Shown here: piece after piece, positions 19,172 to 56,161 of the stretch
Layout: the number at the start of each line of letters is the position of its first letter
Position numbering within the stretch: the stretch's first letter is position 1
From: Myrmaecium sp. VS I D KN 1
Taxonomy: Eukaryota; Ascomycota; Dothideomycetes; Valsariales; Valsariaceae
Reading direction: 5' to 3'
Assembly: GCA_019775845.1 (NCBI GenBank)
Contig: JADQAV010000057.1
Span: 1 to 56,191, forward strand
DNA length: 56,191 nt
Notes under the pieces: model-generated
What the model was told of the DNA's origin: nothing
The model's input: only the letters and a program-made list of their open reading frames with translations
Databases searched by the model: none
Translations under genes and position numbers: made by a program

Positions 19172-21385
19172 ATGCTCATCCCCTTCATCACATTGCTATA
19201 TCTCCCCGGGCTCCTCCTCGCCAGTCCATCGCCACCTTCCTGCAACAGCTGGTGCATGTCCATCAGTCCTCACGACCACGGCCAGTCATGCATCTCCTCG
19301 TCCAACCACAACAGCGGTCCATGCTACTCGTGCGGACCACGCAAGAGCAATCACTGGCAGCAATGGTGCGGGTCCAGCTGCTGCAACACCCAGACGGACG
19401 AGATCAACTGCGGCGGGTGCGGGCATAAGGTGAGAATGACGTCTCGCTCTTTCTTGTTTTCTACTGCTCCGGATGCAGCCGGTGTGTTTGAGAAATGATT
19501 AACGGGATTTCTTCAGTGCGGCCGGAACCAACTCTGCGTCCAAGGCCTCTGCCAGAGACAGTCGGACCAAGGCACCACGCCCAACTGTGGAGGCGGCCAG
19601 ACGTGGTGCGGTCAGAACAACCGATGCTGCAGCCTTTCCAGCGATAATCAGAACTGCGGAAGATGCGGAAACAACGTGAGCCACTCCCGTTCCCCTCTAA
19701 TAAACACGCCAATCCCTCTGTATTTCATGAAAAGACGGACTAATCCCTTCCAGTGTCCTAATGGCCAAACCTGCCAACTCGGCCAATGCAAGCCACAATG
19801 CCAGAACGGCCAGACCTACTGCTCGCAAAGCAACAGCTGCTGCAATCTCCAGAACGACGGGCAGAACTGCGGGTCCTGCGGGAACAAGGTCAGCGACCGT
19901 CCCCCGGGCACTTTTACCAGCGTTTGACAACACCACTCACACACAGCCTCCCAGTGCCCACAAGGCCAAACCTGCTCGTCCGGCCAATGCAAACCAACCT
20001 GTTCCTCCGGCCAGATATTCTGCCAGCAAAGCAGCACCTGTTGCAATTTAAACCAGGATAACAACAACTGCGGTAAATGTGGGAACAAGGTCAGCGACCG
20101 CCCCCGGAGGGTTCCGCCAGCATTAGACATCACTACTGACAGTCTCCCAGTGCCCACAAGGCCAAACCTGTCAATCCGGGCAGTGCAAACCAACCTGTTC
20201 CTCCGGCCAGACGTTCTGCCAGCAAAGCAGCACATGCTGCAATTTAAACCAGGACAACAACAACTGCGGTGCCTGCGGCAACAAAGTACTGTAACACTCC
20301 TCTGCGTGGATCCCGGCGGTGCTGCTAACATCGATATTCTCTCTCCAGTGTCCACCGGGCCAATCCTGCGCCTCCGGCAAATGCCAGCCCGTCTGTCCCA
20401 GCGGGCAATCGCTGTGCAACAACAAATGCACCAACACCGGCTCCGACAACCAGAATTGTGGGAAGTGTGGGAACCAGGTATGCAGGCCTCCGAGGGGTGC
20501 TCGGGATGAGGAAGGAGAAGAAGGGGTTGTTGCTTACTCACATCACTCGTACAGTGTCCGCAAGGCCAGAACTGTCAGTCGGGCCAGTGCAAGCCGCAGT
20601 GCCCGAGCTGGCAGACGTTGTGCGGTAATAAGTGTACCTATACCGGATCTGATAATCAGAATTGTGGGAAGTGTGGGAATCAGGTGAGCAAACCTCAGCT
20701 TGACAACGTCTATTGAAGGAAGTGGCTTCTCCCGCTCACCATCTTCTTCTCCTTCAGTGTCCACAAGGACAAACCTGCCAATCCAGTCAATGCAAACCGC
20801 AATGCTCCAACGGGCAATCGTTGTGCAATAACCAGTGCACAAACACCGGATCGGACAGCAATAACTGTGGGAAATGCGGGAACAAAGTGAGCCGAGCGAA
20901 CCGGTATCTTGCCCATATACACATACTTACCCCCTCACCCCTCCTACCCAGTGCCCCCAAGGCCAAACCTGCCAGTCAGGGCAATGCAAACCTCAATGCT
21001 CCACCGGGCAGTCCCTATGCAACAACCAATGCACCACCACCTCCTCGGACAGCAATAACTGCGGGAGTTGCGGGAACAAGGTAAGGCCCCCTTTTCTCCC
21101 CTTCCCCCCTAAGGCGCCCCTCCCCTAACCCTCCTCCTCAGTGCCCCTCAGGACGCACATGCCAGTCCGGCCAATGCGTCCCAACTTGCCCCGCCGGAGG
21201 CACCTGGTGCGGTCAGAGTAGTTCGTGCTGCGATTTGCAAAGCGATCGGGCGAATTGTGGGGGGTGTGGGGTGAAGGTGAGTGATAACCCTTGGGAGAGA
21301 GCGAGCGAGGGGATGGATTTGCTGACGTAAGGGGGGGGTGTAGTGTGCCGGGGGTTGTGTGAAGGGGATGTGTGTGGGGAGGTGA
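19172..21385 (+). CDS. Secreted cysteine-rich protein built from exon-encoded tandem repeats
   Basis: Eleven exons: 19172-19429, 19517-19675, 19754-19888, 19955-20089, 20151-20285, 20349-20477, 20555-20683, 20758-20886, 20952-21080, 21142-21276, 21344-21385. All ten introns (61-87 nt) are phase 0. The product has 504 residues and 90 Cys. Exon 1 holds a signal peptide (MLIPFITLLYLPGLLLAS) and a divergent first half-repeat ending CGGCGHK. Exons 2-10 each encode one full repeat that begins at a Cys (usually CPxGQxC) and ends CGxCGNK/Q. Exon 11 encodes a last half-repeat (CAGGCVKGMCVGR). Exons 3-5 and 10 are 45-residue units with Cys at 1, 7, 12, 16, 23, 29, 30, 39, 42; exons 6-9 are 43-residue units with Cys at 1, 7, 12, 16, 23, 27, 37, 40. 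The spacing resembles Stig1-like and other extracellular knot-type repeats. It probably forms a disulfide-dense rod in the cell wall or medium; function unknown. Confidence 0.9.
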
Positions 21386-49495: not shown

Positions 49496-50128
49496 AGAGT
49501 TTGGGATCTGGTGTTTTCGGGGGAAGGTAATAGGGGGGCCAAGGTTGTCTTCTTTGTTTTTTTTTTTTTTTTTTTTTTTTTTTTCTTGTCTTGTAATTCT
49601 TTGGGACGGGTTTTAGTTGCATGCCCTTCGCTGGTATTAATCAGGGAATGAAAGAGATCATATAACTCCACTTTCTTCCGTCGTCTGCCTTCATCACGAA
49701 ACGGAATTGAAGGGAATGGATGCTCCTGTGGCCTCTCGTGATGGGCCTGAAAGCTCTTGATGGAAGACAGGCCAAGTAGACGAGTTGATAGTGGTGGAGA
49801 TTAGCGGGATCGGACCTAGGTGGAACGAAGGCTCGGGCTGACGGTGATGAAAATGACGGACAGATACTGCGTGTTTCCTGTTTTACGGACGATGATGTGG
49901 ACGGCCATGGGTTGGATGACAAGGAAAGGAAAAGGAGGAGATGGAGATGAACGAATTTCACTTGGAGCGGTGTTGAGCCTCGCTACGGATATCGCCAGGT
50001 GCAGTGTCGTCAGAACACCCCATCCCGAACCGCCAAGCCACAAACCAAGAGAAGAGAGAGATAGAGGAGAAGAGGAGAGATCGAAGAGCAAAGGATCAAA
50101 TAGCAAGAGAGTGAGAGAGAAAAGGTCA
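49496..50128. other. Intergenic region with T28 homopolymer; no gene
   Basis: A run of 28 T at 49557-49584, then mixed sequence and a purine-rich stretch (50040-50130) that forms the 3' flank of the minus-strand acidic protein gene. Confidence 0.5.
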
Positions 50129-55295: not shown

Positions 55296-56161
55296 GGGAT
55301 TACCGTATCTAGAGTTTTTATTTCTTTGGTCTGGATGGGGGATATACTGTTGCTGTATCGTGTGGTACTTCTTGGGTTGTCTTTTTTTTTATATCGAAGT
55401 CATTCATATCATTGAGGCTTGGGTTCCTCTCATATTCGTGCTTCTTTTGACATCCTCCGTCATTCATTTCTCTGCTACATTGTCTATATCCCTCATACGT
55501 GGTCCAGACCTCCTCCTGACGTCCCGCCATTCTGGCTGGCCCCCGCGGTGTTTGAACGAAGGATGTGCGGGTGGAAGATGAGCCTCAGTATCAAGGGGGT
55601 TATATGCATACCGTGGAGTGGTGGAAGGGGGTTGTGAGGAAGAGAGGAGAAAAGGGGGAGAAGGGAATAATGATGGCAAAAAAAATAAAGAAAGAAAGAT
55701 GGAAAAAAAAAAAAAAAAAAAAAAAAAAACAATATGACGTTTTCTGAAGACTCATGTGAACGGCCACTTCCTCGCAGAGGCAAACACTTGCTAATGGACA
55801 TAAGAACGCCTTACCATCGTCAGGCTGATGGTTCGAGGAGAGGTACTTGTGATGGATGACTTCCTGTCGTAGAGCTGAACGGTTATACTGTTTATCTTCC
55901 CTCCGTTCCTCACGCCCATTCGCACGCCCGCTTTTCGTCTGAGGGGGAGCTGTCTCAACCACTGCTATCCGGTCACTGCCGCCTGCACCTCCTCTCAATG
56001 TTTCAGCCAGGGCTTCTGATTGTGAAGCGCGGAGACATCACACAGCCTTGCGGCTCGAAACCACCTTTGTTTCGAGAAAGCAATACTGAATATCAATTGT
56101 GCGCGAAGTTGAGCTTTCACCGCAGCAGTCGTCTGATTTGCTTCGAGATCATTCCTCCCAT
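55296..56161. other. Region between the membrane protein gene and tRNA-Gly; A27 homopolymer
   Basis: 3' flank with an A run at 55703-55729 inside a purine-rich stretch (55618-55729), then mixed sequence up to the tRNA. No gene seen. Confidence 0.5.

Follow-up and report, generated by a model that had tools for sequence, protein, structure and literature searches.

Stig1 (PF04885) is named after the stigma-specific protein STIG1 of plants. Plant STIG1 proteins, which are active in the stigma and the pollen tube, are short, and their genes are usually intronless. Like the fungal protein described here they are Cys-rich and probably secreted, and they share with its repeat unit the pattern NCGxCGxxC-x5-C-x4-C with a preceding C or CC; the fungal protein differs from its namesake in forming a ten-joint array with introns at every joint. 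Long arrays of such units, with a period of mostly 43 residues (266 of 537 homologue units), are seen in the MXAN_6577-like proteins of Myxococcota and deltaproteobacterial MAGs. The fungal protein likewise forms a long array, which in its gene, by contrast, is split by introns at every joint.

Other fungal repeat genes, gigA or others, may also have one intron per repeat. The Kex2-processed repeat proteins of fungi (KEPs, gigA, Rep1) are, like the present protein, secreted tandem units, whereas the latter has no dibasic sites between its repeats; the available excerpts of the two papers concerned do not state an intron per repeat (PMC6374014, PMC9769878), and the excerpt of a third describes one or two introns near the signal peptide rather than one per repeat (PMC8786786). 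In animals, exon-shuffled modules are described as class 1-1, with introns at the domain boundaries, and the available part of a review raises the question of why exon shuffling is confined to Metazoa, all domain types used there being class 1-1 (PMC8001218). As far as the excerpts go, the mention of Stig1 in PMC12712428 is a match in an algal secretome, and those in PMC9839799 and PMC11756074 are irrelevant. Among the papers listed in searches of the open-licence literature, none was seen to describe a fungal gene that gives each Stig1 repeat an exon of its own, which is weak evidence of absence.

The window, i.e. the whole stretch of 56,191 nucleotides that was analysed, is a contig of the fungus Myrmaecium sp. 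VS I D KN 1. From its DNA we rebuilt a gene that starts with an ATG at 19172, has a stop codon ending at 21385 and comprises 11 exons. Its ten introns (61-87 nt) are all GT-AG, all in phase 0 and all at the same point of the repeat, and its product has 504 aa, 90 of them Cys:

19172..19429, + strand: exon 1, hydrophobic N-terminus (signal-peptide-like, by eye), Cys-rich head and first NCGxCG half-unit; 86 aa, 10 Cys
19430..19516, + strand: intron 1, 87 nt, phase 0, in-frame stop
19517..19675, + strand: exon 2, repeat period of the CC type with an 8-residue insert; 53 aa, 9 Cys
19676..19753, + strand: intron 2, 78 nt, phase 0; on retention the reading frame stays open
19754..19888, + strand: exon 3, repeat, CC type; 45 aa, 9 Cys
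19889..19954, + strand: intron 3, 66 nt; homologous to intron 4 (z 6.5, 0/300 shuffles)
19955..20089, + strand: exon 4, CC-type repeat forming a pair with exon 5 (dN 0.057, dS 0.656; tree support 98/74)
20090..20150, + strand: intron 4, 61 nt; homologous to intron 3
20151..20285, + strand: exon 5, repeat, CC type
20286..20348, + strand: intron 5, 63 nt
20349..20477, + strand: exon 6, repeat, single-C type; 43 aa, 8 Cys
20478..20554, + strand: intron 6, 77 nt
20555..20683, + strand: exon 7, repeat, single-C type
20684..20757, + strand: intron 7, 74 nt
20758..20886, + strand: exon 8, single-C-type repeat forming a pair with exon 9 (dN/dS 0.053; tree support 89/72)
20887..20951, + strand: intron 8, 65 nt
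20952..21080, + strand: exon 9, repeat, single-C type
21081..21141, + strand: intron 9, 61 nt
21142..21276, + strand: exon 10, repeat, CC type; 45 aa, 9 Cys
21277..21343, + strand: intron 10, 67 nt; weak pyrimidine tract; the alternative pair 21271-21364 also fits
21344..21385, + strand: exon 11, closing half-unit CAGGCVKGMCVGR followed by the stop codon; the C-terminus lacks a hydrophobic tail

The length of every exon is a multiple of three (159 nt for exon 2, then 135, 135, 135, 129, 129, 129, 129 and 135 nt for exons 3-10), and at all ten joints CGxx on the upstream side meets C on the downstream side. The periods are ordered by type: exons 2-5 are of the CC type with 9 Cys, exons 6-9 of the single-C type with 8 Cys, and exon 10 is again of the CC type with 9 Cys, while the array ends in half-units, exon 1 closing with the first and exon 11 supplying the final one. 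Rebuilding the gene thus reproduced what the initial annotation had reported of the layout, namely ten phase-0 introns at one point of the repeat and, among exons 2-10, eight of nine that measure exactly 129 or 135 bases; the modular length that it proposed is also supported, in that symmetric phase-0 exons of one period each would allow the array to change in length without loss of frame. Its secreted protein of 504 residues with 90 Cys is correct in size and Cys count, secretion being a prediction from an N-terminal hydrophobic stretch recognized by eye. Tandem Repeats Finder did not report the array.

Several features bear on the reality of these junctions. In the 120 homologues listed out of 1910 matches, exactly two residues separate NCGxCG from the next Cys in 675 of 680 cases, and splicing gives all ten motifs of the fungal gene this same spacing. 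Of the 138 GT..AG pairs close to the ten sites, a single one at each site leaves the frame open and restores NCGxCGxxC, except at intron 10, where two do. Chance is, on this evidence, a poor explanation of the predicted junctions. In-frame stops lie within introns 1, 3, 5, 7, 9 and 10, and introns 4, 6, 7, 8, 9 and 10 change the frame; a YTNAY-type branch site is present in 10/10 introns, a weak control for so short a motif. Intron 2 (19676-19753, 78 nt) is the only stop-free in-frame intron, and its retention would add 26 residues rather than end the protein. Genome-wide, the DNA pattern NCGxCGxx followed by GT gave 11 matches versus 1 for the reversed control, ten of them in this gene and one in a second, Stig1-like gene on another contig (C6). 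A looser DNA pattern was too unspecific (418/392 matches versus 427/369 in the control) and was set aside.

The coding sequence also behaves as if selected. Between the closest repeats, dN/dS is 0.087 (exons 4/5) and 0.053 (exons 8/9), and reaches 0.51 in other repeat pairs with a defined dS, dS being undefined in 13 of the 36 pairs and saturated in others. By this measure, purifying selection is acting on the closest repeats. The gene model is a prediction from DNA, and intron 10 combines a weak acceptor tract with one alternative, so that a prediction artefact or a pseudogene might be considered. This reading is nevertheless very improbable, given the rebuilt open gene model, the junction test and the low dN/dS, and the restored junctions together with dN/dS led us to reject it. 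The locus is best described as a real, selected fungal gene for a predicted secreted Stig1-type (MXAN_6577-like) repeat protein.

This family assignment comes from profile searches. Stig1 scored 142.6 bits against a cut-off of 24.1 (E 5.4e-42, nine stretches) and was the sole Pfam family up to E 10, while in NCBIfam the MXAN_6577-like model NF041328 reached 293.6 bits against a cut-off of 100, residues 289-416 being the best of five stretches; three collagen-like adhesin models of NCBIfam were also listed, far below their cut-offs. The kind of protein is already known, and the initial annotation, so far as it takes it for undescribed, is not supported here. Eleven of the 120 listed homologues bear an organism name, in each case that of a deltaproteobacterium or myxobacterium, and the set is called bacterial here with the reserve that the other 109 are without a name. 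In one genome per species for 84,980 bacterial and archaeal species, 4 loci were confirmed of 11 pattern matches, all in MAGs of Deltaproteobacteria or Myxococcales (38-43% identity) and each with its array in one open frame. Homologues with the same repeats in one uninterrupted exon had been named as evidence against the proposed layout. Bacterial homologues do have such repeats, four of them seen as DNA, yet they are uninformative on intron layout, because bacteria have no spliceosomal introns. In composition, 535 of the 537 homologue units carry 8 Cys and 6 show a CC pair, whereas the fungal gene has 9 Cys and CC in five of nine periods. The bacterial identity of the closest sampled relatives, where they are named, prompts the question whether the gene crossed between kingdoms.

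The exon 1 region, used to seek fungal relatives, led to 24 candidates, none of them a match up to E 10, and exon 1 alone as a query gave no candidate. Four pattern matches in viral contigs contained no relative, and solved structures gave no sequence match up to E 10. The Stig1 profile had no match in 14 control genomes; in the fungus's own genome 5 places matched it up to E 10, C6 holding one of them, and none exceeded the cut-off exon by exon; a protein search of the same genome returned ten matches up to E 0.001, all within this gene. By eye only, the head of homologue P0096 (residues about 53-75, CSKFCHDVLPHQRGQCESACKTC) recalls that of exon 1. Regular-expression surveys of the homologues for such a head were uninformative, one matching ordinary repeats in 88 of the 120 proteins and the other finding 9 proteins but missing P0096, and the accompanying phmmer E-values, inflated by the repeats, were disregarded.

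The homologues further allow the exon to be compared with the probable folding unit. Across 410 8-Cys homologue periods, the joint that bears the intron in the fungal gene has one length in 99.3% (0.06 bits), and only NCGxC itself is more constant; the most variable spacings of the same periods are C3-C4 (1.44 bits) and C5-C6 (1.63 bits). Moreover, the array runs on past the joint to CxxGxC in 109 of the 118 homologues with the motif, as it does here in exon 11. Because the joint is nearly invariant and the array continues beyond it, the folding unit probably spans roughly C4 to the C3 of the following period and would be cut by the intron. The exons match the period but, it appears, not the domain, the introns lying half a domain out of register, and the claim that exons 2-10 encode single whole repeats has to be narrowed: each encodes one period, which is whole only in a circular sense.

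This register also separates the gene from animal modules, with which it shares symmetric exons, an extracellular product (predicted here) and frame-safe copying. Animal modules are class 1-1 with introns at domain edges, whereas the fungal exons are class 0-0 with introns that, judged from sequence, fall inside the domain, and the close parallel drawn in the initial annotation is not borne out. What appears to be new is a class 0-0 exon array in a fungus, in a predicted extracellular protein that would have grown exon by exon within its gene. Period and register, which are usually confounded, come apart in this gene: the exon equals the period exactly but probably does not follow the fold, so that frame-safe copying rather than domain boundaries would be decisive.

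Further information on the intron comes from the second gene:

G000:C6:183407-183427, locus L024, - strand: second Stig1-like gene, with a Ser/Thr-rich mucin-like exon, a C-terminal Cys-rich tail and one split unit

The Ser/Thr-rich open exon of this gene (557 aa upstream of the site in that frame) ends in NCGSCGNE and is followed by a predicted intron of 62 nt (GT-AG, CTAAC site, phase 0) at the same point of the unit, and then by CASGAACTNGIC. The joined unit just misses the Stig1 cut-off (23.8 versus 24.1 bits), hence 'Stig1-like' only, and scores 14.9 against a cut-off of 100 with the MXAN_6577-like model. The intron is predicted from the restored Cys spacing, the GT-AG ends and the CTAAC site alone; it contains no stop, and the unspliced frame is open (688 aa in all) but loses the Cys pattern. 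Since two unlike genes share the intron point, the intron probably predates the array; a separate gain at the same base is possible, though less likely. Beyond the array gene, this is the one other gene in the genome with such a unit, and one intron only is shared. The bare DNA pattern NCGxCG has 16 matches in the 25.66 Mb genome versus 11 for the reversed control, little above chance, and none of the five outside the two genes has the Cys spacing of the unit, although one of them (on contig C15) lies in a frame with a Cys cluster.

Concerning the origin of the array, 537 distinct units were cut from the 120 listed homologues (38-56 residues, 7-10 Cys; others were dropped), and all nine fungal periods proved nearer to another fungal period than to any of them. 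In a tree of the nine periods and 65 homologue units (45 nearest and 20 random; LG+G4 without mixture), the fungal periods form one side of a branch (support 97/91), exons 6-9 are grouped inside the CC-type periods (100/88), and exons 4/5 (98/74) and 8/9 (89/72) form pairs, values to be read with 43 columns, an unsettled bootstrap and closest-match sampling in mind. Adjacent exons resemble each other, only 830 of 362880 orders doing as well. Introns 3 and 4 align over their full length (interior identity 0.68; none of 300 shuffles as good), while the 44 other pairs of the 45 contain nothing convincing, the next best being introns 6/7 (z 2.3, 3/300), given 45 tests. The exons that directly follow introns 3 and 4, namely 4 and 5, have as a pair the lowest dS (0.656); hence it would be in the youngest copy that the homology of the introns can still be recognized. 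The array most likely grew, as far as the sequence can tell, by tandem copying of exon plus intron.

As a whole, the explanation that we consider probable is that the intron came first and that the combination of intron and exon was then copied by unequal exchange within a selected Stig1-type gene. A phase-0 intron would have been acquired in one Stig1 unit, between NCGxCGxx and the next Cys. Because this intron recurs once per repeat period, each intron plus exon would have become a frame-safe unit, and unequal exchange between such units would have copied them into nine repeat exons. The 8-Cys form would have arisen later from the 9-Cys (CC) form and would itself have been copied into exons 6-9. 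The account draws on supported parts, namely the gene model, the family, purifying selection, the single clade of repeats, the homology of introns 3 and 4 and the intron at the same point of a second gene. We infer from these the order of events and a contribution of the intron through frame-safe exchange and in-frame exon skipping. Against the account stands the clear homology in only one of 45 intron pairs. In such a compact genome with short introns, the age of the intron relative to the array is datable by comparison between species.

The reverse order, in which a multi-repeat array was there first (e.g. by transfer from bacteria) and each joint received its intron later, through an introner-like element or by insertion at a preferred proto-splice site, would suit the nearest sampled relatives, which are multi-repeat proteins and bacterial where named, as well as the many intron pairs that cannot be aligned, and the repeated joint would have offered the same target sequence ten times. 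We find it hard to reconcile with introns 3 and 4, homologous along their length, with repeats that form one clade inside the homologue units instead of ten lineages, and with joints that are interrupted in all ten cases, none having been missed. Introners, moreover, occur in many copies. Here, in a search that skips simple repeats and common words and with introns that are short, no second genomic DNA match to 19172-21385, introns included, was found up to E 10, and an introner origin was rejected accordingly; array-first insertion is improbable. A single clade of repeats could also result from gene conversion. An old array that already had its introns, and whose repeats were kept alike by conversion and unequal exchange, would indeed be expected to show a single clade and low dN/dS, the clade then reflecting homogenization and not recent growth. 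Conversion must however be infrequent now, because dS between most repeats ranges from about 0.9 to saturation, and the AAAA-BBBB-A blocks look like local copying, so that we hold homogenization to be equally improbable.

Copying of intron plus exon within the gene, our preferred reading, has also to be set against movement between genes. The exon might be a mobile class 0-0 module that intronic recombination carried from one fungal gene to another, as happened to class 1-1 modules in animals; its symmetric 0-0 exons and the presence of a Stig1-type unit in two unlike genes whose intron positions match speak for this, and movement between genes is suggested by them. Yet the unit on C6 is bounded on one side only by the shared intron, the other side being the long open mucin-like exon, and the exon is half a domain out of register, which makes a mobile module unlikely. 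A broader proposal, that of a fungal class 0-0 extracellular exon module in which a pair of Stig1 half-domains, flanked by phase-0 introns and fixed early in a fungal lineage, was amplified within genes and moved between them, with in-frame exon skipping producing a ladder of protein lengths, is unlikely. If true, it would contradict the notion that exon shuffling is animal-only and always class 1-1, and would show that an exon need not match the folding unit.

As for function, the mature part, taken from residue 18 (cut by eye), is rich in Cys, Gln, Gly, Ser and Asn, with a pI of about 8.3. There is no N-x-S/T sequon after residue 17, despite 57 Asn and 91 Ser/Thr. Two candidate classes were rejected: a Kex2-processed peptide precursor, as KR, RR, RK and KK are absent between the repeats and the single dibasic pair lies at residue 57, in the head; and a GPI-anchored wall protein, as the C-terminus, which ends in CAGGCVKGMCVGR, has no hydrophobic tail by eye. 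The protein is probably neither N-glycosylated nor GPI-anchored, to judge from its predicted sequence. Because of the closing half-unit, the missing hydrophobic tail and the conserved repeats, we tentatively favour a disulfide-braced extracellular spacer or rod in the wall or matrix, a role that may well be the right one without being the probable one; the length of the protein would be set by the number of repeats. Alternatively, it could act on another organism as a secreted effector or an antimicrobial-type Cys-rich protein, in line with its high Cys content and with a section on the small secreted proteins of a nematode-trapping fungus that, in the available excerpt, includes Stig1 among the Pfam domains (PMC3828140). 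But its length of 504 aa with ten repeat joints, the scarcity of hydrophobic or charged residues, the lack of dibasic (Kex2-type) sites between repeats, and purifying selection rather than diversification in the closest repeats make an effector seem unlikely.

The surroundings of the gene are consistent with an ordinary fungal chromosome. Ten ORFs of the 64 listed were scanned between 1776 and 34470, of which six exceeded a Pfam cut-off (anoctamin, GH3 glycosidase, fungal transcription-factor domain, MFS, ornithine cyclodeaminase/mu-crystallin and major royal jelly protein), two fell under it and two were without match. The window contains 22 N, and A-rich and T-rich runs lie near its end, at 55672-55729 and 49553-49584.
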